This document shows positions 7,166-53,992 of a stretch of DNA of 64,000 nucleotides, one piece after another (within the stretch, counting starts at the first letter, position 1; the number at the start of each line of letters is the position of its first letter). The stretch is taken from positions 251,001-315,000 of the forward strand of contig JAZAYU010000035.1 in the NCBI GenBank assembly GCA_038501625.1, read 5' to 3'. Under the pieces are notes generated by a model. That model saw only the letters and a list, made by a program, of their open reading frames with translations. It had not been told where the DNA came from and did no database searches. A program made the translations under genes and the position numbers. Origin of the DNA: Corbicula japonica (taxonomy: Eukaryota > Mollusca > Bivalvia > Venerida > Cyrenidae).

Positions 7166-8255
7166 CCTAAAATTTGTAGAAAAAATATATGGATTTTGAA
7201 CCTTTAATTCTGCTCTATTCCAGATACGATTTAATAAAACTTATATTTTTATATAAGGATGAAGTATTTTCTGTTGATTGATGTAGTTTTCATTTCAAAA
7301 TTTTTGCACTTAGGTAACATATTTACTGTATAACATACATAAACCCTAAAAAGATGAAATTTAAGTCAGAAACTTACCTGTAGGATTTTTATTTGTAATC
7401 AAACTTAGGCAATAATACATGTTTTTGAAAGCTGCATGATCAAACAATATAAAACGGTGTGTTTTTCATAAAAATCACACTGGCAATTGTTATATTTTTT
7501 CTATAATCGTATATGTTACCATATCGCTACTTCAAACATTATATTCATGTTTTGGGATAAACAAGCATAAAATATAGAGTTTAATTAAATTATTGAGCTT
7601 TATAAATTTAAGTGTTCTTGAAACTTGCATGACTTCAAATTTTCAACATACATAACATATGTTACTTATTAAAATAAGGCGTTTTTCCTTGTTTTTATTT
7701 GTTTTAATGGTGTTAGCTGATATCTATTTGAAGAAATTAACTATGTGTGCTCTGTGCAATGTCCTGATGTTTGTTAGCCCTGTGTAGATTTCTAATTACA
7801 TTCACAGTCGTTTTTTAACTAATATTACTGATTGAATGAAGTATTTTCTCTAAAACTGATATTATTGTACAAAGAACTGAACATATTTACAAAACTGTAT
7901 CACAACTATGCAATCATTTTAGATTAAACTATAAAATAATAATAGTAAAAAGTTTACAGTGTATAATATGTTATGTTATGTTATGTGGTTAAAAATTAAA
8001 ATGTTAAAGTGTTTAAGCTTGTCCATTTTAAACCTTCAAATCTCCGTAACATATAATTCTGAAGTTACAATATTGACAAAGTACAATGCATTTATGAATT
8101 AAATTCTAAACAAATAATTTTTAGAATTGGTTACAAAAAAAGTAAAAAGACAAGAGATAAAAATATCGCTCTGAAAAGTGTTACAAACAAAACTAATTAA
8201 AATTAATTATATGTTACCGTGTTATTTAAATAATGTTTTTTAGAAAGATCACTTA
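7166..8255. other. AT-rich interior of the composite element
   Basis: No gene. The word TATGTTAC or its complement GTAACATA recurs (near 7157, 7314, 7512, 7655, 8046 and 8210), as it also does near the right end of the composite element. These may be subterminal repeats of the DNA transposon. Confidence 0.4.
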
Positions 8256-8805
8256 GATTGCACGACGGTGGCAGGGGTTTAAGAGTTTATGAAGGTTAAT
8301 GGGGAAATCTTTTCTTAAAAGAACCTAGAAGCTCGATTTGTTTCTTTTATCCCTGTCATCGTGTTCTTGCTGATTTTACTCCAGATGCTCTGGTCTCGGA
8401 AAGATCATTGAGTACCCGCCCTTTGGCTTTGCAATGCTATTAGCTTCTTATGTTTTTATGTTTGTATGCTTTTGCATACAACATTGTTGAGCTGATGGGT
8501 GGGTTGGAGTTATTTCACCAAGACAATTTGTACTTGTCTTGTGATACGAGAACCTGTTGGGGCAAGTGTGAGGTTGGTGCACCCTAGAACCTGGTTTAAA
8601 CCCCCAGTGGCAATTTGATTTGCCACTGACCGTTCCAAGGCGGTAACCCCTCGGGTTCTCATTTTTGTTTTTTGTTAGTGGCGTCCTTTTTGAAACTGAT
8701 TATTTTATTAACCATGCTCTCTCCCCCTCTCTTCTTCTTGACTGTGTGGGGAGGCTGTTTTTTTCTGAATGTGGCAATTCCTGATATGCATATTTCACCT
8801 TTTTA
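8256..8805 (+). repeat. Naiad 5' pseudo-LTR
   Basis: 550 bases apparently identical to 12445-12994. Being a copy of the element's 3' end, it contains the last codons of the ORF, the TAA stop and a complete SECIS-like structure (8261-8363) upstream of the gene. Pseudo-LTRs are a hallmark of Penelope-like elements and are thought to come from tandem or overlapping insertion. It probably carries the promoter, but no TATA box could be assigned. Confidence 0.85.
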
Positions 8806-9261
8806 TAATCACAGTAGTTGTGTATGTGCTGTGTGGCGGCCGTAAAACGTCTCCCCGTACTTACATTCAATACTGTTATCTTTTCATCCCTCAGGGACTG
8901 CATTTGACATTCACTTTCCACACCCCCTCCCCACTCACTCATTTACTATTATATACCACATTGAAGGTTATATGTTCACCGACTTTCTGTTGCGTTTAAA
9001 TTGATTTATTATTATACGCTTTCTGGAACCAGAATTGGTCATTTTGGTGTATTTTAGTAATCTTTTTACAGTCCCATCCCTTTGGGATCAGTGATTCAGG
9101 ACGTTAATATTTATGGACATTGATCTGCGTGCTATTTATAGAATATAATGTTTAGCGCGCTTTACTGTCTATCCACGTATTACGTTGTGACGTCACTTGA
9201 GAAATTCAATGCAACCTAAAGTCGCTGGTCATATAATGGTATTCTTTCTACATATTTCATT
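8806..9261 (+). promoter_or_regulatory. Naiad leader, with CRE-like site
   Basis: 456 bases between the 5' pseudo-LTR and the start codon. The frame of the ORF is closed upstream by TAA at 9217-9219, so ATG 9262 is the first start. A perfect CRE palindrome TGACGTCA lies at 9188-9195, 67 bases before the ATG. A segment near 8835-8865 (GTGTGGCGG...GTCTCCCCGTAC) recurs at about 49165-49200 in an unrelated repeat. Promoter function is only inferred. Confidence 0.35.
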
Positions 9262-12200
9262 ATGGCGACACAAAAAATATTGAAAATCTATCTTTCTCCA
9301 ATAAGGCTATCTTCTGCGTCTTCTGTCCAAACACCGCATAAAATTAAATCTTTTAAAAGTCTGCAGCCTTCGGTTCGTTTATCACGTATTAATTTATCTT
9401 CGGCTAGCTCTATCAATATGACAGGTCTGCAGAGGGCTCACTGTACTAATTTATTTAAAAACAATTTAAAAATTACTCTTTCACCTTTAAAATCTCCTAT
9501 TCTTCGAAAGTATAATATTTCTACAACAAATAATTTGAATGACGGAAGACGCAGACCTTATCCTTCTATTTTCAAGTGCAATTCTAAGAGGTGCAGATGC
9601 TGTGATTATTTGAATTGTAATTCTATCATTAAATCCACAGTTAACGGCAGAACTTTCTCAGTTAACATTAATAATGATATAGACTGACGAACTGATAATA
9701 TTGTTTACGTTTTAACTTGAAATTCTAATAACTGTGGTATTCAATATGTGGGACAAACAGGTCGCCCTTTAAAAACACGTTTTGGACAACATTGTTCTAA
9801 AATTCGAAACAACAGTAAATTTAAAACATTTTTATACCAACACTTTAAGCATTCAGGACACCGTTTACAAAATATTTCCGTTCAACCAGTAGAAAAACTT
9901 ACATTTGACAGCACTGCTTCAAGAGCATTTAAAATCAGGGCCAGGCTCGTTTCGGAGCAGAAATGGATTAAAAAATTACAAACTCCTTACCCACTTGGTT
10001 TAAATGATAATATTTATCAAGAAGGCAACATTTCTAAAAATCCTGATTATGACGTCTTTGAATTACTTGAAATACGTAAAAGAAAATCGAGGTCGCACGG
10101 AAGCAGAACTAATGGAAACATAAAAAGAAAATCACGTATTCGTTGTTCTATTCATGACCTACATATTATTTTAAAACAATCTGGCAGACACGCTATGCTA
10201 TCTAGGTTAGCTTCTCTTTCTATATCAAGTTTGCAGAAACTGGATGAGGAAGCCGACGACATCGTCATTAGAACCCATCCATTTTACGAGGTTGCTAGTC
10301 TTATTCAGTGTTATACTCGGCATGTTCTCAGGCCGCATATTGACTTGGAATCTGACCATCAAAGACATTTCCTTAAAATTTCTTTTTTAAATAAAGGAAT
10401 AGATTTTATTGACCTTCCTAGTATATTTAAAGATAAAACAGTTCAATCGGCTGTTCCTATTTATTTTAAGAATACTGAATCGCCTATGGTTTGTTATAAA
10501 TACAACAAACCAACTAGAAATACAATTTTTAATTACAATAAAATTACATCGGATTTACAGATCATTGAAAATACACCAAAATCTTGAGATTGTTTAACTT
10601 CTAAATATTGCTATAAGCCTGCCGGTCATATTGTTACCGGTGATCTTAATTTAATCAAAGACTCTAGAATTCGTAATTTAATTTCTAAAGGTCCCAAATA
10701 TAGAATATCATCCAAAATTGACTTTAATGCATGCCGTGCAGAAATTGCCGAGTCTTTGAACTTATTTTGCAATAAATGGTGCAAAAGAGAACATGCCGAG
10801 CCTAATGCACTTTCTAACTGGAAAAAGCACATATTCAAAATAATTGACACCCGTATATCATTTTATGAAAGAAACATTGCTTTATTACCACCTCGACCTC
10901 GTTTTAACTTTCGTCATTTGAAAAAAGGAATTCAAGACTTTCATAACAGATTTGTTTTAACACCTGCTGATAAGGCTTCTAATAATGTAATTATAGTGTG
11001 ACGAATACACTATATTAATATTCAAACTGAAGAACTGAACAGCACTAATGCTTATATACTGACTTCTTCATCTGAGAGTGATATTGTTACTGCACACACT
11101 CTACAAATTACAAAATTTAGAATCAGTATTGAGCCGAAACAAGACAAAGTACCTACTATGTATTGGTTACCTAAAATGCATAAAACACCGTATAAAGCAA
11201 GATTTATTGCTAACTCTAGTTCTTGCACTACTACTAAATTATCTGTGCTCTTAACATCTTGTCTTACAGCTATAAAAGAACACGTAATTAGGTATTGTGA
11301 TAAGGTTTTTGAAACTTCTGGCAAAAATTTATTTTGGTCGATTAAGAATTCAAATGACGTTTTGAATAAGCTTAAATCAAATAATTATCGGGCGTTCTGT
11401 TTGTCTACTTACGATTTCTCAACATTATACACTTCGCTCCCTCATAATTTAATAAGAGACAAACTAACCAGTCTCATTGAAAAAACGTTTGCTAGAGAGA
11501 ATAAAGCCTTCATCGCTTGTAATGAACATAGGGCATTTTTTACAGATGGTTCTTATGATAATTATACCTTATGGACTTGTCAAGACCTTATAGAGTCGCT
11601 AACTTTCTTACTAGATAATATTTATGTTAGATTCGGTACCTCTATTTATAAACAAGTAATAGGCATCCCAATGGGTACTAATTGTGCACCCCTTGTTGCT
11701 GATCTGTTTTTATACTGTTATGAAAGAGACTTTATGTTATCTCTTTCTACTGAACATCAAGATGATATAATTACAGCTTTTAACAACACCTCGAGGTACC
11801 TTGATGATTTATTAAATATAGACAATAACCATTTTCCATTACTTGTTAATAAGATTTATCCTAAAGAACTACAACTTAACAAAGCGAACACTTCAGAAAA
11901 GCAAGCAAACTTTCTCGATCTAAATCTGTCCATTGAAAATGGTTATGTCACTACTAAAATTTATGATAAAAGAGATGATTTTAATTTTAATATAGTAAAT
12001 TTTCCGTTTTTAGACGGCGATGTTCCCCGTGCAACATCTTATGGGGTTTATATCTCACAGCTTGTTCGCTTTTCAAGAGCTTGCAACAATGTTAATGATT
12101 TCAATGAACGTAATCTTTGCATTACAGAAAAACTTTTAAAACAAGGTTATCGGTATCACAAATTAAGGAAAACCTTTTGCAAGTTTTATCGCCGATACCC

Positions 12201-12471
12201 AGATTTAATTCATAAATACAAATGCAGTTTAAAATCACTTTTGCAACAAGGTATTTCACAACCAGTTTTTTATGGAGATTTAATTTATAAACTTAAAAAG
12301 ATAAAAGGCAGTGTTAATTTCTCCCGGTTATTCGTAAAAACCATCTGTAAATTTAAAAAGAAAGGTTACCAACATGATATTTTACAGCGCTCTGCAGGCC
12401 TAGTGATTAACCCTTCTACAGTTGATCATTATGCTTACCTCTTTGATTGCACGACGGTGGCAGGGGTTTAA
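9262..12471 (+). CDS. Naiad GIY-YIG endonuclease / reverse transcriptase, putative selenoprotein
   Basis: One frame of 1069 codons, interrupted only by TGA at 9685, 9718, 10585 and 10999 (codons 142, 153, 442, 580); no in-frame TAA or TAG before the stop at 12469-12471. Residues 106-119 are cysteine-rich. The GIY-YIG nuclease starts at GIQYVGQTGRPLKTRFGQH (159-177), with R173 and histidines 177, 194, 197, 200. TGA 153 takes the place of the first cysteine of the nuclease CCHH motif. TGA 442 gives U-D-C, the CxC motif of Naiads. The RT has motif A (STYDFSTLY, D718), motif B (GIPMGTNCAP, about 801-810) and motif C (YLDD, D848-D849). It should nick target DNA and prime reverse transcription in the nucleus. 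With a SECIS at the stop codon, UGA is probably read as selenocysteine. The alternative is a copy with four nonsense mutations that happen all to be TGA. Confidence 0.85.
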
Positions 12472-12552
12472 GAGTTTATGAAGGTTAATGGGGAAATCTT
12501 TTCTTAAAAGAACCTAGAAGCTCGATTTGTTTCTTTTATCCCTGTCATCGTG
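12450..12552 (+). promoter_or_regulatory. SECIS-like element (form 2), Naiad copy 1
   Basis: Basal helix: 12454-12464 region GTGGCAGGG pairs with CCCTGTCAT (12540-12548 region, 9 pairs with two G-U), with CACG/CGTG below it across a bulge; AAGAG pairs above it with CTTTT/TTCTT sequence. A TTT/TTTGTTT-type internal loop follows. The core is ATGA (12478-12481) opposite GA (12524-12525). Helix II is about 12 positions with two or three mismatches. AAA at 12494-12496 lies in the 5' internal loop, topped by a perfect mini-helix TCTTTT/AAAAGA with loop CTT. These are the parts of a eukaryotic form-2 SECIS. It overlaps the stop codon, which is unusual. Folded by hand only. Confidence 0.75.
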
Positions 12553-12794
12553 TTCTTGCTGATTTTACTCCAGATGCTCTGGTCTCGGAAAGATCATTGA
12601 GTACCCGCCCTTTGGCTTTGCAATGCTATTAGCTTCTTATGTTTTTATGTTTGTATGCTTTTGCATACAACATTGTTGAGCTGATGGGTGGGTTGGAGTT
12701 ATTTCACCAAGACAATTTGTACTTGTCTTGTGATACGAGAACCTGTTGGGGCAAGTGTGAGGTTGGTGCACCCTAGAACCTGGTTTAAACCCCC

Positions 12795-12816
12795 AGTGGC
12801 AATTTGATTTGCCACT
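12795..12816 (+). promoter_or_regulatory. Conserved hairpin in Naiad 3' pseudo-LTR
   Basis: AGTGGCAA pairs perfectly with TTGCCACT around a TTTGAT loop. The GTGGCAA/TTGCCAC arms persist in diverged fragments (plus strand 35320s and 53800s; minus strand 44110s and 45970s) while the loop changes freely. This suggests a structured RNA or DNA signal used by the element, perhaps for template recognition by the RT. Confidence 0.55.
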
Positions 12817-12994
12817 GACCGTTCCAAGGCGGTAACCCCTCGGGTTCTCATTTTTGTTTTTTGTTAGTGGCGTCCTTTTTGAAACTGATTATTTTATTAA
12901 CCATGCTCTCTCCCCCTCTCTTCTTCTTGACTGTGTGGGGAGGCTGTTTTTTTCTGAATGTGGCAATTCCTGATATGCATATTTCACCTTTTTA

Positions 12995-14548
12995 GAATAA
13001 AGAAAATAAATTTCTAAACCGTGTTATACCCGGTAGTTTGTATCTAGATTACCGTAGAGTCATTCATAATGTGAATATGAACTTTCTATAAACTATATTT
13101 ACTTAAAACAAGGTTGAAAGCACCAGTTCTGGTCTTTTAGAGCAATAATAACTGACATTGCTGTTAAATAAAACATGTGAAATATGAAAAATAAATTGTC
13201 CTAAATGAAACATTATTTTTCCATTGTTCAAAGAAAGCTTATTATAATAAGAATTTGTTAAGAATTCCTTAAAATCTTTGTAGAGTGTTATTTTTCTTAA
13301 AGACAAATAATTGTTAAAGAGAAACATCCTAATTTGAAAGACAATCTGTGTAATGCAGGTGAGGTAAGCTAATAGACAAGTTAACGTTGCCTTATGTATA
13401 ATACTTTTTAGGTAAAAATTCTTTTACTTGAGTTAAAACAAATGCTATATAATGCTCATGCTGTTTCAATGTTTTACAAATTCTACACTGAACCTAAGTA
13501 TTTTAGATGAATAAAACTACTTTTAAAAACATTTCTAACATCAGATAATTTAATCAGCTTATTTGTGTAAAGTTTAAATTAAGTAGCTTTTAAATTTGTT
13601 ATAGATCAACTTTAACATAATATAATATTATATAAAAAATTTTTTATCTGAATGTTAACTAATTATTTGCAGTTTCTTGCTATTCTTTTCTTATTATTTT
13701 TGCTGATTATTAAAGTAAAAATTGGTAACATATTATAGGATGACAAAAGACATAAATAGTAATAATAAAATGATAAAAATTGTTAATTTTGTTTATTCTT
13801 TCTTTTCTACATTTTGTTAGAACAAATTATTGTTATCTGTCTCAATCAAGAGTATCTGGACTTAGCTTTAGACTGGATGCAACAGCCCATAATTAGTGAA
13901 AACGTAAGCTGTACTACAATGTTGTCACTGAGCCATATTGATAGGTTTATTGTTAATTTAAAAAGATTTAAATAGGACGAACTTGAACCATCTACATCAT
14001 ACACATTTTTTCAAGACATATTGAGCAGTACACAGATCATTAACTTTTAAAGTTTAACAATATTTAAATTAAAAATACATTACTGTCTTATATCACCAGC
14101 ATCAATACCTTAATTTCCTTTTTGTAACATAATTCTTAATATATATTACCTATTTTAATACAAGATACATAAAGTGCAGGAAGGTTGGTAACTAAAATAC
14201 GTTCTTTTGGGTATCATATATAAAAAATGGTGATTTATGATATGGTATTTATTTTTATTATGATATAAAGCTAACAAATCGTTACAACTCATGACGAGGT
14301 GTATTTAAATAAAAACAATTACACCAAAACTTCAAATTTATTAACCATATACATAAATATATGATATAGCGTAATACTAAAGTCACATATAAATAAAGTT
14401 ATGGATAATATTAACAAAGTGTTTAACACAGTTTACCTTTAAATCACACAATACGTCTTTCAGAGTTTATTTCTTTATAATATATTTTATTTATCGATAT
14501 TTTATTTGCTATCTTTGAGATGTATTTTTTTCCTTTTTTTCAGATGTT
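12995..14548. other. AT-rich interval, no gene
   Basis: About 1.5 kb between the full Naiad and the LINE. It is very AT-rich with no ORF resembling a known protein, no tandem array and no matched termini. It is probably the interior of the composite DNA element. Confidence 0.5.
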
Positions 14549-14813
14549 TTGGTTTTGGAATTTACAAATATATGTATTTATTTACATACATTAGACAAGA
14601 ATAGTGTCTCAAATATAGAAACTGATCAATTGCCACAAGAGTTTAGTGATTTCTTTGTTGAGAAAATAGAAACCATCAGAGATGAAATAAAACCAAAATT
14701 AGTTCTAAACCCAGTTGAAGTAGAAACAGAACAGATGGGTGTTGAAAATAGTCTGACTCGCTTTGAAACAGCATCAAAAGAAGAAATTAAGAAAATAATA
14801 AATAGCTCTTAAT
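14549..14813 (+). pseudogene. LINE ORF2 linker segment (left part of split LINE)
   Basis: The open stretch to 14812 encodes LPQEFSDFFVEKIETIRDEI and then FETASKEEIKKIINSS. This matches the linker between endonuclease and RT in CR1/L2-like LINEs. It continues on the far side of the Naiad insertion at 16811 (SNKSCELDPIPTWLLK), giving the usual family reading ...INSS-SNKSCELDPIP.... The endonuclease domain is not found upstream, so the LINE is 5'-truncated. The first ~15 residues may be non-LINE sequence. Confidence 0.7.
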
Positions 14814-14816
14814 AAT

Positions 14817-16420
14817 AAACATAGCTTTACTACCACCTCGACCTCGTTTTAACTTTCGTCATTTGAAAAAAGGTATTCAAGATTTTCACAACAAATTTGT
14901 TTTAACACCTGCTGATAAGGCTTCAAATAATGTTATTATAGTGTGACGTATACACTATATAAATATTTATTCAAACTGAAGAGCTTAATAGCACTAATGC
15001 TTATACACTGACATCTTCATCTGAGAGTGATATTGTTACTGCACACACTCTACAAATTACTAAATTTAGTATCAGTGTTGAGCCTAAACAAGACAAAGTA
15101 CCTACTATGTATTGGTTGCCTAAAATGCACAAAACACCGTACAAAGCAAGATTTATCGCTAACTCTAGTTCTTGTACTACAACAAATTTATCCGTGCTCT
15201 TAACATCTTGTCTTACAGCTATAAAAGAACATGTAATTAGGTATTGCGAAAAAGTTTTTGAAACTACTGGCAAAAATTTATTTTGGTCTATAAAAAATTC
15301 AAATGACGTTTTGAAGAAACTTAAATCAAATAATTTTCAGGCGTTCTGTTTGTCCACATATGATTTTTCTACCTTGTATACTTCTCTCCCTCATAATTTA
15401 ATAAGAGACAAGCTAACCAGTCTCATTGAAAAAACTTTTGCTAGAGAAAATAAAACATTTATTGCTTGTAATGAACATAGGGCATTCTTTACAGATGGTT
15501 CTTATGATAATTATACTTCATGGACCTGTCAAGACCTTATCCAGGCGCTCACATTTTTATTGGATAATATTTATTTGAGATTTGGTACCTCTATTTATAA
15601 ACAAGTAATAGGCATTCCAATGGGTACTAATTGTGCACCCCTTGTTGCTGATCTGTTTTTATACTGTTATGAAAGAGATTTCATCTTATCTCTTTCTACC
15701 GAACATCAAGATGATATTATTACAGCTTTTAACAACACCTCGAGGTACCTTGATGATTTATTAAATATAGATAATAACCATTTTCCATCACTGGTTAATA
15801 AGATTTATCCTAAAGAACTACAGCTTAACAAAGCGAACACTTCAGAAAAGCAAGCAAACTTCCTTGATTTAAATCTATCCATCGAAAATGGTTACGTCAC
15901 TACTAAAATTTATGATAAAAGAGATGATTTTAATTTTAATATAGTAAATTTTCCGTTTCTAGACGCCGATGTTCCTCGTGCAACTTCTTACGGGGTTTAT
16001 ATCTCACAGCTTGTTCGCTTTTCAAGAGCTTGCAACGATGTGAATGATTTCAATGAACGTAATCTTTGCATTACAGAAAAACTTTTAAAACAAGGTTATC
16101 GGTATCACAAATTAAGGAAAAACTTTTGCAAGTTTTCTCGCCGATATCCAGATCTAATTCATAAATACAGCTGCAGTTTAAAATCACTATTGCAACAAGG
16201 AATTTCACAGCCAGTTTTTTATGGAGATTTAATTTATAAACTTAAGAAGATAAAAGGCGATGCAAATTTCTCCCGGTTATTCGTAAAAACCATCTGTAAA
16301 TTTAAAAAGAAAGGTTACCAACAAGATATTTTACAGCGCTCTGCAGGCCTGGTGATTAACCCATCTACAGTTGATCATTATGCTTACCTCTTTGGTTGCA
16401 CGACGGTGGCAGGGGTGTAA
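14817..16420 (+). pseudogene. Naiad RT, truncated, with retained UGA
   Basis: The N-terminal nuclease is absent. The region before the RT reads to TGA at 14944-14946, the same codon as TGA 580 of the full copy. A 4-base insertion about 25 bases later then shifts the frame. From 15107 a 437-codon stretch is open to TAA 16418-16420 and carries intact motifs A (STYDFSTLY), B (GIPMGTNCAP) and C (YLDD). It differs from the full copy at about 22 of 437 residues, with many additional silent differences visible. So both derive from coding, selected parents. Dead by truncation. Confidence 0.85.
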
Positions 16421-16501
16421 GAGTTTATGAAAGTTTATGGGGAAATCTTTTCTTAAAAGAACCTAAAAGCTCGATTTGTTTCTTTTATCCCTGTCATCGT
16501 G
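16399..16501 (+). promoter_or_regulatory. SECIS-like element, Naiad copy 2
   Basis: Same fold as at 12450-12552: ATGA 16427-16430, AAA 16443-16445, GA 16473-16474, identical mini-helix. Differences from copy 1 keep or improve pairing. In helix II a G-U becomes A-U and an A-A mismatch becomes U-A; in the basal helix a U-U mismatch becomes G-U. The sequence also spans the TAA stop. Confidence 0.7.
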
Positions 16502-16810
16502 TTCTTGCTGATTTTACTCCAGGTGCTCTGGTCTCGGAAAGATCATTGAGTACCCGCCCTTTGGCTTTGCAATGCTATTAAATTCTTATGTTTATATGTT
16601 TGTATGCTTTTGCATGCAACATTGTTGAGCTGATGGGTGGGTTGGAGTTATTTCACCAAGACAATTTGTACTTGTTTTGTGATATGAGAACCTGTTGGGG
16701 CAAGTGTGAGGTTGGTGCACCCTAGAACCTGGTTTAAACCCCCAGTGGCAATTTGTTTTGCCACTGACCGTTCCAAGGCGGTATCCCCAAAGGTTCTCTT
16801 GTTTTTTTTT

Positions 16811-18312
16811 CAAACAAATCATGTGAACTGGATCCTATACCAACATGGCTATTAAAATCGTGCCTTGATGAACTTTTACCATTTATTTCTAACATTATCA
16901 ACACCTCTCTCAGCACAGGAAATGTTCCCGCAGATTTTAAAAGGTCTTATGTTAAACCTCTTCTGAAAAAAACCAACTTTGGATCAAAACATTTTAAAAA
17001 AACTATCGACCTGTTTCAAATTTATCATTTGTATCGAAGACACTTGAAAGAGCAGTAAGCTCTCGCATTGATGAACATGTGACAACAAATCAACTTCAAG
17101 AAAAGTATCAGTCAGCCTATCGCAAATTCCATTCGACAGAGACTGCACTTATCAAAGTCCAAAACGATGTCCTAAAGTCCCTTGACCAAGGCAATGTTAC
17201 AGTCTTAGTTATGCTAGATCTATCAGCAGCTTTTGACACAATTGATCACAAGACTTTGTTACAGAGACTGGAAAATGTTTTCGGAATTGCTGAAAAGCCA
17301 CTGGAATGGATAACATCATACCTTCAAGATAGAAAACAGACAGTATACATTAACGGTGTGCTGTCAAAGCCGGTCACACTTAATTTTAGTGTCCCACAGG
17401 GATCTGTTTTAGGGCCAAAATTTTATACTATGTACACTAAACCACTTGGTGCCATTTGCAAAGATCACGGGCTGCAATACCATCTCTACGCCGACGACTC
17501 ACAGCTGTATCTATCTTTCAAACCATTAGATGACATTTCTAAGGAAGAAACATTACAACGCATTCAATTGTGTCTCCGAGACATAATATCATGGATGAAT
17601 GCAAATATGCTCAAACTTAACACTGATAAAACAGAAGTCATCATGTTCTCATCTCCGTATAACTCCAAACATTGAAGATCTATCGATAACTGTGGGTGAC
17701 TCTAAAATAAATCAATCGGTTAATGTTAGAAATTTAGGTGCCATCTTTGATTCAAACATGAACATGGAAGATCACATCAATTCGGTATGCAGATCATGTT
17801 ATGTTCATCTTAGACAAATAGGCAGAATTCGGAAATATCTGACAATTGATGCATCTAAACAACTTGTCACTTCATTGGTCATTTCGCGCCTAGATTACTG
17901 CAATGCACTATTGTATGGAGTACCTCAAACATTAATCAACAAACTGCAGATTGATCGCGGTACGATCATATTACACCTGTACTAAAAGAATTACATTGGC
18001 TTCCGGTGCAATACAGAATCCAGTTCAAAATTTTAACACATACCTACAAAGCTTTATACGGAAAATCGCCGGAATATATGGAAGAAATGTTATGCGTTTA
18101 CAAACCACGAAGGAATCTACGATCTCAGAACAAAGCACTTACTTTAGTTATACCAAAAAGTAAAACTGTAACCTATGGCGACCGACGATTTGAATATGCA
18201 GCTCCGAAACTGTGGAACGATCTGCCGTCTGATGTCAGAGACTCAAGCTCATTGTGTTCTTTTAAACGTGCACTTAAAACACACTATTTCAAACAGTCCT
18301 ATTGTGTGATAT
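16811..18312 (+). pseudogene. CR1/L2-like LINE reverse transcriptase, degenerate
   Basis: Non-LTR retrotransposon RT. The frame is broken at about 16998 (one-base shift in an A-run), at about 17670 and at about 17950, where roughly 50 bases seem lost. Recognisable pieces are the N-terminal DPIPTWLLK region; motif A LDLSAAFDTIDH; motif B VPQGSVLGP; motif C YADDSQLY; the NVRNLGAIFD and SRLDYCNALLYG blocks; and a C-terminal LHWLPVQYRIQFK...APKLWNDLPSDVR tail. These motifs and their order fit the CR1/L2 group. It continues the linker at 14549-14813. Inactive. Confidence 0.85.
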
Positions 18313-20708: not shown

Positions 20709-20958
20709 CAAAAAGGTGACATATGCTTATCAGAAATTGCCACAAAAAAACAGCCTCCCCACACAGTCAAGAACAAGAGAAAGCATGGTTAATGAAATGT
20801 TCAGTTTCAAAAAAGACAACACAAACAATTAACAAAAATTAGAACCCCAGGGGTTACCGCCTTGGAACGGTCGATGGTAAATCAAATTGCCACTGGGGTT
20901 TAAACCAGGTTCGATGGTGCACCAACCTCACACTAGCCCCAAGAGGTTCTCATATCAA
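20709..20958 (-). mobile_element. Naiad pseudo-LTR fragment
   Basis: The minus strand matches 12720-12980 of the Naiad: GGTTCTAG-like block, GGTTTAAACC, hairpin arm TTGCCACT, CCGTTCCAAGGCGGTAACCC and the pyrimidine tract. Unit 1 (about 2203) is contiguous here, so the fragment inserted after the tandem duplication. Confidence 0.75.
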
Positions 20959-33954: not shown

Positions 33955-34036
33955 TTGAAGGTTATAAAGCTGAGTTTGGAAACCAGTCTCAAATCTCAAG
34001 CATCTGATTGGTGGAATGGCGACTGGTCTCCTTTAA
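33955..34036. repeat. Half copy of the foldback element
   Basis: Carries only the left arm (GGTTATAAAGCTGAG...CAGTCTCAAATCTCAAGCAT...) and stops near the palindrome centre, where Naiad copy 3 begins. The insertion appears to have replaced the right arm. Other partial arms are at about 31643-31690, 45010-45050 and 45717-45785. Confidence 0.7.
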
Positions 34037-34984
34037 TGAACATAGGGCATTTTTACAGATGGTTCTTATGATAATTATACCTTATGGACTTGTCAAGACC
34101 TAATAGAGTCGCTAACTTTCTTACTGGATAATATTTATGTTAGATTCGGTACCTCTATTTATAAACAAGTAAAAGGCATCCCAATGGGTACTAATTGTGC
34201 ACCCCTTGTTGCTGATCTGTTTTTATACTGTTATGAAAGAGACTTTATGTTATCTCTTTCTACTGAACATCAAGATGATATAATTACAGCTTTTAACAAC
34301 ACATAGAGGTACCTTGATGATTTATTAAATATAGACAATAACCATTTTCCATTACTGGTTAATAAGATTTATCCTAAAGAACTACAACTTAATAAAGCGA
34401 ACACTTCAGAAAAGCAAGCGAACTTTCTCGATCTAAATCTGTCCATTGAAAATGGTTATGTCACTACTAAAATTTATGATAAAATAGATGATTTTAATTT
34501 TAATATAGTAAATTTTCCGTTTTTAGACGGCGATGTTCCCCGTGCAACATCTTATGGGGTTTATATCTTACAGCTTGTTCGCTTTTCAAGAGCTTGCAAG
34601 GATGTTAATGGTTTCAATGAACGTAATCTTTGCATTACAGAAAAACTTTTAAAACAGGGTTATCGGTATCACAAATTAAGGAAAACATTTCGCAAGTTTT
34701 ATCGCCGATACCCAGATCTAATTCATAAATACTGGTGCAGTTTAAAATCACTTTTGCAACAAGGTATTTCACAGCCAGTTTTTTATGGAGATTTAATTTA
34801 TAAACTTAAGAAGATAAAAGGCAGTGTTAATTTCTCCCGGTTATTCGTAAAAACCATCTGTAAATTTAAAAAGAAAGGTTACCAACATGATATTTTACAG
34901 CGCTCTGCAGGCCTGGTGATTAACCCTTCTACAGTTGATCATTATGCTTACCTCTTTGGTTGCACGACGGTGGCAGGGGTTTAA
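34037..34984 (+). pseudogene. Naiad RT fragment, broken
   Basis: Covers motif B (with a substitution: VKGIPMGT), motif C (LDDLLNID) and the C-terminal region to TAA 34982-34984. It lacks motif A, has lost one T early (frame change near 34050), and has a TAG in place of a coding triplet directly before the YLDD region (about 34304), so it cannot work. Only the last 76 codons remain open from 34754. Confidence 0.85.
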
Positions 34985-35065
34985 GAGCTTATGAAGGTTT
35001 ATGAGGAAATCTTTTCTTAAAAGAACCAAGAAGCTCGATTTGTTTCTTTTATCCCTGTCATCGTG
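34963..35065 (+). promoter_or_regulatory. SECIS-like element, Naiad copy 3
   Basis: ATGA 34991-34994, AAA 35007-35009, GA 35037-35038, and the mini-helix TCTTTT/AAAAGA all kept. Helix II has two weakened pairs, as expected for a dead copy no longer under selection. Confidence 0.6.
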
Positions 35066-36881
35066 TTCTTGCTGATTTTACTCCAGGAGCTCTGGTCTCG
35101 GTAAGATCATTGAGTATCCGCCCCTTCGGCTTTGCAATGCTCTTAGCTTCTTATGTTTTATATGTTTGTGTGCTTTTGCATGCAACATTGTTAAGCCGAT
35201 AAGTGGGTTGGAGTTTTTCACCAAGACTACTTGTACTTGTTTTGTGATACGAGAACCTGTTGGGGGCAAGTGTGAGGTTGGTGCACCCTAGAACCTGGTT
35301 TAAATCCCCAGTGGCAATTTGATTTGCCACTGACCGTTCCAAGGCGGTAACCCCTCGGGTTCTCTTTTTTTTATTGTAAGTGGTGTCTTTTTTGAAACTG
35401 ATCATTTTATTAACCATGCTCTCTCCCTCTCTCTTCTTCTTGACTATGTGGGGAGGCTGTTTTTTCTGAATGTGGCGATTCCTGATATGCATATTTCACC
35501 TTTTTATTCAAATTTCTCGGATTACAAAAAAATGACGTTTGTAGATCGGCAATTAAAAGTGCTTAATTCATTAAACGACTACTGATGTTGTAAATTTTAA
35601 GAAAAAAATTCTGGTTAAAAACTGTAATTATTTTATTTTGTATTGAAACGCAAATGACAATTTTGGTGTAATTGCTGAACGCACGCTGGGAAATTTGTGT
35701 AGGCAGTTCTTCTAACGTTAATCGCTCTAGCGGATAAAGTTGATTTACACCATCTGTAAGAAAGACTACAACTAACAATATAGAACACTTTTTTTGAAAA
35801 TGAACTCGATACCATTCGATCCGTTCAGTTTATTGATAATGAACTCGATAGATTCGCAAGATTTTCGGCTAAGAACATTTGTCCGATGACAATACATTGT
35901 CTGTTAAAGTTTTGTTTTTTTTCTGAAGCATCTTTATCTATTTCAGTCATTTTATTTAAGTTTGCATATCGGCTATGAACAGTTTAAAGTTAAATTTCAA
36001 TTAATATTTGTAATATCACGTCTTAAATTTCTTAAGGAAAAACATTATGAAATCAGCAACCCTTTTCAGTAAATAAAATTATTTGATTGGTGCGTATGAT
36101 AATATTTATTTCAAGGGTTTCTTTTGAAAACTTTAGTCATGGTGGCGATATGATGTTTAATCCATTTATCGATATGTTTGCTTGCAATTGAAGGAGGTCA
36201 AGTTTTAGGCAAGTGTTGTTATTTACTGTTGTTTATGTCTCCTAAAACAACTTCAATCATTCCCCTGTTTAAATTAAACTTCTGCGTTTTTTATGTATTA
36301 ATGTTCATGTACAAAATTATGATCCTTCTACCTAATATTTCACGAAATAAAAATTAAATTCAATCAGCTTTTGTTGAAGTAAACCGTAAGTTCACCAAAT
36401 CACAAAACATGCGTATCAGGAATAGCTACACTGCGAAATCACAGCCTGTTCTCAGAGACCAAAAACCAGAGATAGAAAAAGAGGGCATGGATTTATAAAA
36501 TGATCAATTTTTAATAATAACCCGATAAATTATTAACGAAAAAGAGAACATGAAGGCTAATGGACAGTGGGAAAACAAAAACAATTTGCTAATGTTGATT
36601 TAACCAAGTATCTAGTTAAGTCAAAAAATCTGCTTAATTGGCTCACCAAAATAGTTCTCAGGAGCCGTGTCAAACCACGTACATATTGTCACAAAACAAG
36701 AAGCTCCATTTTGATATGAGAATGCATTTGTTCTGAAAATAAACAGACCCATAGAGCCACAGTTCCTACTTGTACATACTCTCTGAATGTGACAACACCA
36801 ATTATTTGATAAAACACCGGCAGGCGACTATAAATATTTGATTGCGACAACTTGGTGGTATCTGCATTGTTATGAAAATTG

Positions 36882-43959: not shown

Positions 43960-44255
43960 GCATATTTCTTTGCCAAATACGGAAAAGAATCAGCCTACCC
44001 ACGCAGCCAAACATTGAGAAAAAAAGAGCATGAATTCGTAAGAAAATAAATTTTAAAAAGAAACCACAAAATATTAACGATGAACCGTTGGGGTTACCGC
44101 CTTGGAACGTTTAGTGGCAACATTATTTGCCACTGGGGGGTTAAACAAGATTCTAGGGTGCACCAACCTCACTTTGCCCCCTGTCTTATATAACAAATAG
44201 GTACAAGTCGTCTTGATGAAAAAACTTCAACCCACCCACCCACTTATGTTACATA
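43960..44255 (-). mobile_element. Old Naiad pseudo-LTR fragment
   Basis: On the minus strand: GGGTGGGTTGAAGTTTTTTC, a TTGTACCTA word, GTTGGTGCACCCTAGAA, hairpin arms GTGGCAAATAATGTTGCCAC, CCAAGGCGGTAACCCC and the pyrimidine tract. Diverged, but colinear with 12690-12990. Confidence 0.8.
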
Positions 44256-45794: not shown

Positions 45795-46005
45795 AAAAAA
45801 GTGAAACGTGCATATCAGGAATGCCCACATCCAGCAGACACAGACTCTCCACATTGCCAAAAAGTACAGGGGAGAAGAGAGCAAGGTATTACAATAATCA
45901 GTTTCAAAAAAAGACGCCACAAACAAGTAACGAAAGTGAGAACCCGGGGGTTACCGCATTGGAACGGTCAGTGGCAAAACAATTTGCCACCGGGGGTTGC
46001 AAGAG
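45795..46005 (-). mobile_element. Old Naiad pseudo-LTR fragment
   Basis: On the minus strand: GTGGCAAATTGTTTTGCCAC hairpin, CCGTTCCAATGCGGTAACCC, GGGTTCTCACTTTCG, GTGGCGTCTTTTTTTGAAAC, the pyrimidine tract and the terminal ATTCCTGATATGCACGTTTC. Absent from C1 at about 31690. Confidence 0.8.
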
Positions 46006-53629: not shown

Positions 53630-53992
53630 TTTATAAGCTTCTTATGTTTTATATGTTTGTTAGCTTTTGCATGCAACTTGTTCAGCTGATGGGTGGGTTG
53701 GAGTTATTTCACCAAGACAACTTGTATTCGTGTGTTGATATGAGAACCTGTTTGGGAAAGTGTGAGGTTGATTCACCCTAGAACCTGGTTTAATCCCCCC
53801 AGTGGCAAATCAATTTGCCACCGTTCGTTCCAAGGCGGTAACCCCAAGGGTTCTAATTTTCATTAATTGTCTGTGGTGTCTTATTTGAATTTGTCATACT
53901 TATAAACACATGCTCTCGTTGCCTTTTTGCTGCATGGGCAGGCTGTGTTTTGTGAATGTGGCGATTCCTGATATGCATATTTCACTTTTTCG
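53630..53992 (+). mobile_element. Naiad pseudo-LTR fragment
   Basis: Colinear with 12625-12990: CTTCTTATGTTTTATATG, GATGGGTGGGTTGGAGTTAT, GCACCC-like block, hairpin GTGGCAAATCAATTTGCCAC, CAAGGCGGTAACCCC, pyrimidine tract and terminal TTCCTGATATGCATATTTCA. The SECIS part is missing. Absent from C1. Confidence 0.85.

Follow-up and report, generated by a model that had tools for sequence, protein, structure and literature searches.

Architecture of the locus

The window analyzed here, a 64 kb stretch of a 1.07 Gb genome (G000:C35:251001-315000), contains an open reading frame (ORF) on the + strand at 9262..12471, which encodes an N-terminal GIY-YIG endonuclease, a linker with a U-x-C motif and a telomerase-like reverse transcriptase (RT), and which includes four in-frame TGA codons ahead of a TAA terminator. 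The GIY-YIG domain (residues 147-240; 9700..9981, +) matches Pfam family PF01541 with an E value of 4.4e-5 and 24.1 bits, against a cut-off of 22.6. The RT region (residues about 414-1006; 10501..12279, +) is evident in an AlphaFold model, for which telomerases were the best structural matches. In sequence searches of the PDB, the single sequence produced no match up to an E value of 1, and the search using an alignment retrieved I-TevI (1ln0) with an E value of 0.055.

The ORF is framed by pseudo-LTRs on the same strand. The upstream one (8252..8809), a 5'-truncated tandem unit, is joined to the ORF by a leader at 8810..9261, and the downstream one (12441..12998) starts within the end of the ORF and contains a SECIS-like element. 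The two, which looked identical in the original prediction, agree at 556 of 558 positions, and both of the differences lie at most 4 bases from an edge. They are spaced by 4189 bases, and so are four head-to-tail matches on another contig, C2.

Naiads were reportedly named by Craig, Yushenova, Rodriguez and Arkhipova in 2021 (Mol Biol Evol 38:5005-20), and that work is said to describe selenoprotein Naiads with multiple selenocysteines (Sec) in clams and spiders. Such Naiads reportedly share with the present element an N-terminal GIY-YIG domain, a telomerase-like RT to which it is joined by a CxC region, the pseudo-LTRs and the tandem units, and the clam elements among them also the multiple in-frame UGA codons. 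Several features that characterize Naiads were found at this locus, namely, the endonuclease N-terminal to the RT fold within one ORF, the relatedness of the RT to telomerase in the modeled structure, the 558-base repeat together with the head-to-tail matches on C2, and the CxC linker motif. In a 51-row alignment, the second position of this motif, column 444, is Cys in all 51 rows, and the first, column 442, is Cys in 45 rows (3 of these being TGA codons of this genome entered as Cys), Trp in 5 and a gap in 1. Tandem units of Penelope-like elements yield pseudo-LTRs, according to passages of PMC11167929. Canonical Penelope/Poseidon elements, as portrayed in the same passages for PAc of Anolis (PMC11167929), likewise combine GIY-YIG and a telomerase-like RT in one ORF and form tandem-unit pseudo-LTRs, but carry a C-terminal endonuclease and a hammerhead ribozyme, whereas here the endonuclease is N-terminal and no Rfam hammerhead match was detected up to an E value of 10 in 7500-18000, an absence that is weak evidence.

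Two further Naiad copies on the + strand were detected in the window. The first (14814..16810), which is 5'-truncated and 93% identical, is frameshifted just past the TGA at codon 580 but keeps this TGA and the SECIS-like element. The second (34034..35506) is truncated and decayed, with an internal TAG, and its SECIS-like element is still recognizable, departing from a 40-base pattern at 2 positions. By eye, the first of these copies lies inside an apparent LINE-like element (14600-17960), the RT coding sequence of which seems to continue after 16810. Older pseudo-LTR fragments, 74-85% identical and on both strands, are scattered over the window (53632-53990, 20710-20957, 45795-45998 and 43970-44238).

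The in-frame TGA codons and their conservation

The ORF consists of 1069 codons followed by TAA, and translation confirmed the claim that it is interrupted by TGA alone, which occupies codons 142, 153, 442 and 580, with internal TAA and TAG never occurring. Among the one-step nonsense changes available to the codons of this ORF, ~ 28% yield TGA, so that four out of four would be expected with a probability of about 0.006. Codon 142 (9685..9687, +) lies just before the GIY motif, codon 153 (9718..9720, +) within the GIY-YIG domain, and codon 442 (10585..10587, +) at the first Cys of the CxC motif, which here becomes U-x-C; codon 580 (10999..11001, +), in the RT part, corresponds to the Cys that follows PADKASNNVIIV. 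In an alignment with relatives (A1), all four TGA codons align with conserved Cys columns. Only 10 of the 971 testable columns contain at least 70% Cys and all four TGA fall on these, which in a random draw of 4 out of 1069 positions has a probability of about 4e-9. Furthermore, the four Sec sites belong to the 10 conserved positions among 34 cysteines (p = 0.0045 in a post hoc test), which favors a functional role over chance tolerance. A "neutral ratchet", whereby Sec would be tolerated anywhere given a SECIS, is disfavored by the same post hoc comparison.

We then turn to the other copies in the same genome, which was searched with the relatives P0001, P0004 and P0011; these queries gave 54, 46 and 46 scored matches, respectively, from far more first-look candidates. 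With one query, a distant relative, four in-frame TGA were counted in 46 of the 46 scored matches, one of which has an extra TAA; with another, the count was again 46 of 46, with one extra TAA or TAG in four matches, the two sets overlapping and both including the window copy at 9262-12471. The third query covers only sites 442 and 580, and in 50 of its 54 matches the stops are 2 TGA and nothing else; a single match out of the 54 has 1 TGA and 1 TAA, indicating that individual copies can lose the TGA pattern. These counts give the numbers of stops rather than their places. All scored matches to the three queries carried TGA, and no Cys-type Naiad was seen among them.

The places of the codons were read in 30 loci (L031-L060, of which L056 is the window copy). 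TGA is present at codons 142 and 153 in 29 of the 29 readable loci, and at codons 442 and 580 in all 30. At the 30 other Cys columns, the same loci contain TGT or TGC, and, in seven instances, codons for other residues, but never TGA. The frames of these loci were cut between TAA and TAG codons, so that new TAA or TAG are uncountable there. In the initial survey of copies, all four TGA were in register in 13 of 30 loci, including the window copy, and the remaining 17 were not comparable without gaps owing to truncation, rearrangement or indels.

The two main subfamilies are separated by dS of about 0.53, with dN/dS of about 0.1, and the survival of four neutral TGA triplets over this divergence has a probability of about 0.003. 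In the segments between the TGA codons, dN/dS is below 0.3 wherever dS could be estimated, the segment 143-152 being very small (10 codons). These segments show purifying selection, which extends beyond each of the UGAs. A comparison of 9262-12471 with L033, L034 and L052 shows a gradient along the ORF: the two main subfamilies are about 76% identical at codon 100 but about 96% identical at the 3' end, with dS dropping from about 0.7-1.0 to 0.3, which suggests that the subfamilies recombined or that templates were switched between them. Overall, the genomic copies keep the four TGA instead of showing sense codons or random stops, and the relatives have Cys at the four aligned columns; these two observations support the original interpretation of the locus as a selenocysteine Naiad.

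The SECIS-like element and the host selenocysteine machinery

A SECIS-like structure had also been claimed, without coordinates, at the end of the gene, and such a hairpin is located at the stop codon (12469..12538, +), but Rfam showed no SECIS match in 12440-13000 at E values up to 10. Helix I (12469-12474 with 12533-12538) includes the TAA, and is followed by AUGA (12478-12481), helix II, a bulged AAA (12494-12496), a mini-hairpin (12497-12511) and CGAU (12523-12526), all on the + strand. This succession of AUGA, 12 bases, AAA, mini-hairpin and CGAU over helix I matches the SECIS core. The upstream pseudo-LTR contains a second copy of the element (8280-8349, +), with a SECIS scan match at 8289. 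In our custom SECIS scan, the Naiad ends gave the best + strand scores in the 64 kb (8 minus-strand matches were counted only), and when the 3' end was shuffled, an equally good match was obtained in 7 of 2000 cases and any match in 101 of 2000. The sister copy at 14814-16810 produced a sub-threshold Rfam SECIS match (19.4 bits, with a gathering threshold of 35; E = 9.4). The hairpin is no more stable than its shuffled versions (z scores of -0.12 and 0.08).

For the analysis of covariation, 11 of the 21 distinct 3' ends were aligned. Some of those omitted (L011, L019, L027, L031, L037, L038, L040, the second L042 form, L045 and L055) are the same as included ones within the hairpin, and others are decayed or altered there by an indel or a base substitution; as a result, intact copies are overrepresented in the pair counts. 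Among the 11 chosen variants, changes fall in helix II, its internal loop and the tip of the mini-hairpin, and mostly preserve pairing (G-U to A-U, U-G to U-A, U-A to U-G). Across these variants, 98.6% of the cells are paired, compared to at most 72.7% when the structure is slid, the structure having been drawn on these same sequences. No two-sided compensatory change was found in the hairpin among the 11 variants, and the column-shuffle control gives no support. The evidence for a SECIS is mixed, with the core and the placement being good and the Rfam call absent.

Animals usually carry one or two tRNA-Sec genes. The present genome exceeds this number, with four tRNA-Sec matches at 78.8 bits (gathering threshold, 47; the next best match scores 46.9), and SepSecS is represented by seven stretches that pass the cut-off and together lie in 8.4 kb of C7; in controls, both families also matched some bacteria and archaea, so that these searches are not perfectly specific. 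The four equal-score tRNA-Sec matches are distributed over contigs C13, C107 and C108.

Relatives, alternative readings and implications

Exactly before codon 580, 21 relatives stop: 18 predicted proteins, which have Cys at 442, and 3 of the 7 gene models from the pearl oyster Pinctada imbricata, the other 4 of which do not end there. Trp occurs at the Sec columns 142, 153, 442 and 580 in 4, 3, 5 and 5 cases, respectively (column 153 being filled in only 6 of 51 rows), compared to none at six further conserved Cys columns with a total of 174 residues, and the simplest reading of this difference is that TGA was translated with code 4. Excluded from this count are P0062-P0181 and, of the first 61 proteins, 14 that are fragments, chimeric models or distant rows. 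The Trp letters indirectly point to UGA codons in these relatives. The pattern varies among sequences: P0010 has Trp at 142 yet Cys at 442 and 580, and P0001 has plain Cys at both 442 and 580. Among relatives of the part after codon 580, of which 120 are listed out of 5304 found, 104 begin beyond codon 580, and at 580 itself Cys occurs in 9 and Trp in 2, counts that are biased and do not amount to proof because the query itself started after 580 and the length of candidates was limited.

Besides Pinctada imbricata, the named sources of relatives are a metagenome-assembled genome (MAG) named for a Bathymodiolus symbiont and MAGs of Thiodiazotropha, which are symbionts of lucinid clams. The host of the present element is probably a bivalve, and the assignment to the clam group is tentative. 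A search of genome contigs gave two loci, L061 and L062. The Naiad-like sequence L061 (contig QIJL01000205.1), with 32% identity in the best segment, shares the domain order and motifs with the present element but differs in that each of the four positions is a Cys codon and its 3' end yields no SECIS scan match; in L062, 580 is the only site that was read, and it is Cys. The contigs of L061 and L062 carry the labels of Flavobacteriales and of a Bathymodiolus symbiont MAG, and both sequences are probably eukaryotic contamination of bacterial MAGs. A scan of viral contigs for related DNA retrieved no relative.

A tree was built from 46 rows, omitting 5 near-duplicates beyond the omissions from the Trp count, with site states derived from protein ends and Trp letters, the codons having been read in this genome only. 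The UGA-type state at 580 occurs in 26 rows, all of which belong to a single 30-row clade (support 100/99), as does P0001 with Cys. The constraint holding these 26 rows together versus the Cys rows was not rejected (AU p = 0.06), whereas a single clade for the 442 state was strongly rejected. These results suggest that, as far as states can be judged from such sequences, 580 was probably Sec early and 442 changed state more than once. A reversion of P0001 to Cys at 580 is suggested by the tree but, with an AU p value of 0.06, is not firm.

How the UGA codons are read can be weighed against this background. That the TGAs arose as decay mutations in a dead copy would fit with the single base that separates every TGA from TGT and TGC, the codons for Cys, and with the decayed state of the other two window copies; nevertheless, this is extremely improbable given that all scored genomic matches (46 of 46 in both sets) contain four TGA, that the places are the same in two subfamilies diverged to the extent given above under low dN/dS, and that these places are conserved Cys columns. 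We consider it very unlikely, too, that TGA is a general sense codon, for Cys or Trp, in this genome and that selenium is not involved. Such a code would account for the frame being open once TGA is read through, but TGA as Cys would be scattered over the 30 other Cys columns, where the 30 loci show none, and the genome has matches to both tRNA-Sec and SepSecS.

Programmed read-through or regulated termination, yielding mainly truncated endonuclease or linker products and little full-length protein via a near-cognate amino acid, appears improbable: the sites are Cys in relatives rather than arbitrary interdomain points, with 153 within GIY-YIG and 142 just before it, and a SECIS-like element is located at the stop. 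Sec insertion is generally inefficient, so that truncated products are to be expected under selenocysteine decoding as well. Almost certainly, a single protein is made in which the four UGAs are read as selenocysteine; we infer Sec incorporation itself from sequence evidence.

Under selenocysteine decoding, the mRNA would start in the upstream pseudo-LTR, and a form-II-like SECIS at the UAA, within the downstream pseudo-LTR, would recruit the host Sec machinery for all four UGAs, with the UAA terminating translation. The resulting protein would nick DNA with its endonuclease and then reverse transcribe, like other Penelope-like elements, and in both the endonuclease and the RT its selenolates may occupy metal-binding or redox-sensitive sites. 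Sec could be of use there in metal binding, redox resistance or the control of output. We conclude with high confidence that a Naiad-type Penelope-like retroelement of high copy number was recently inserted at this locus and that its UGAs are read as selenocysteine. As an instance of the phenomenon reported for clam Naiads, and not of a new one, it is very well supported. Our literature searches for Naiad or Penelope with selenocysteine or selenoprotein, and for selenoprotein with transposable elements, returned nothing relevant by title.

Gene callers cut such ORFs at UGA or write Trp, so that these elements are represented in databases as fragments, as seen with some two dozen relatives. Multi-selenocysteine proteins are rare, and a mobile element whose enzyme requires four selenocysteines in each copy amounts to a natural experiment. 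The element offers a test case for how a single SECIS can act on UGAs that lie as much as 2.8 kb upstream, why Sec replaces conserved cysteines and whether selenium limits transposition, and from the states at codons 442 and 580 the gain and loss of Sec can be counted. More tentatively, and as a possibility that we hold to be rather less than probable, Sec may have been recruited repeatedly at the same few essential cysteines in a large, probably bivalve, Naiad clade, early at 580 and, at 442, either on two or more branches or with reversions. In that case, Sec would have been selected and not merely tolerated, so that the mobility of an element that ranks among the most abundant in these genomes would be tied to the selenium supply and Sec machinery of its host.
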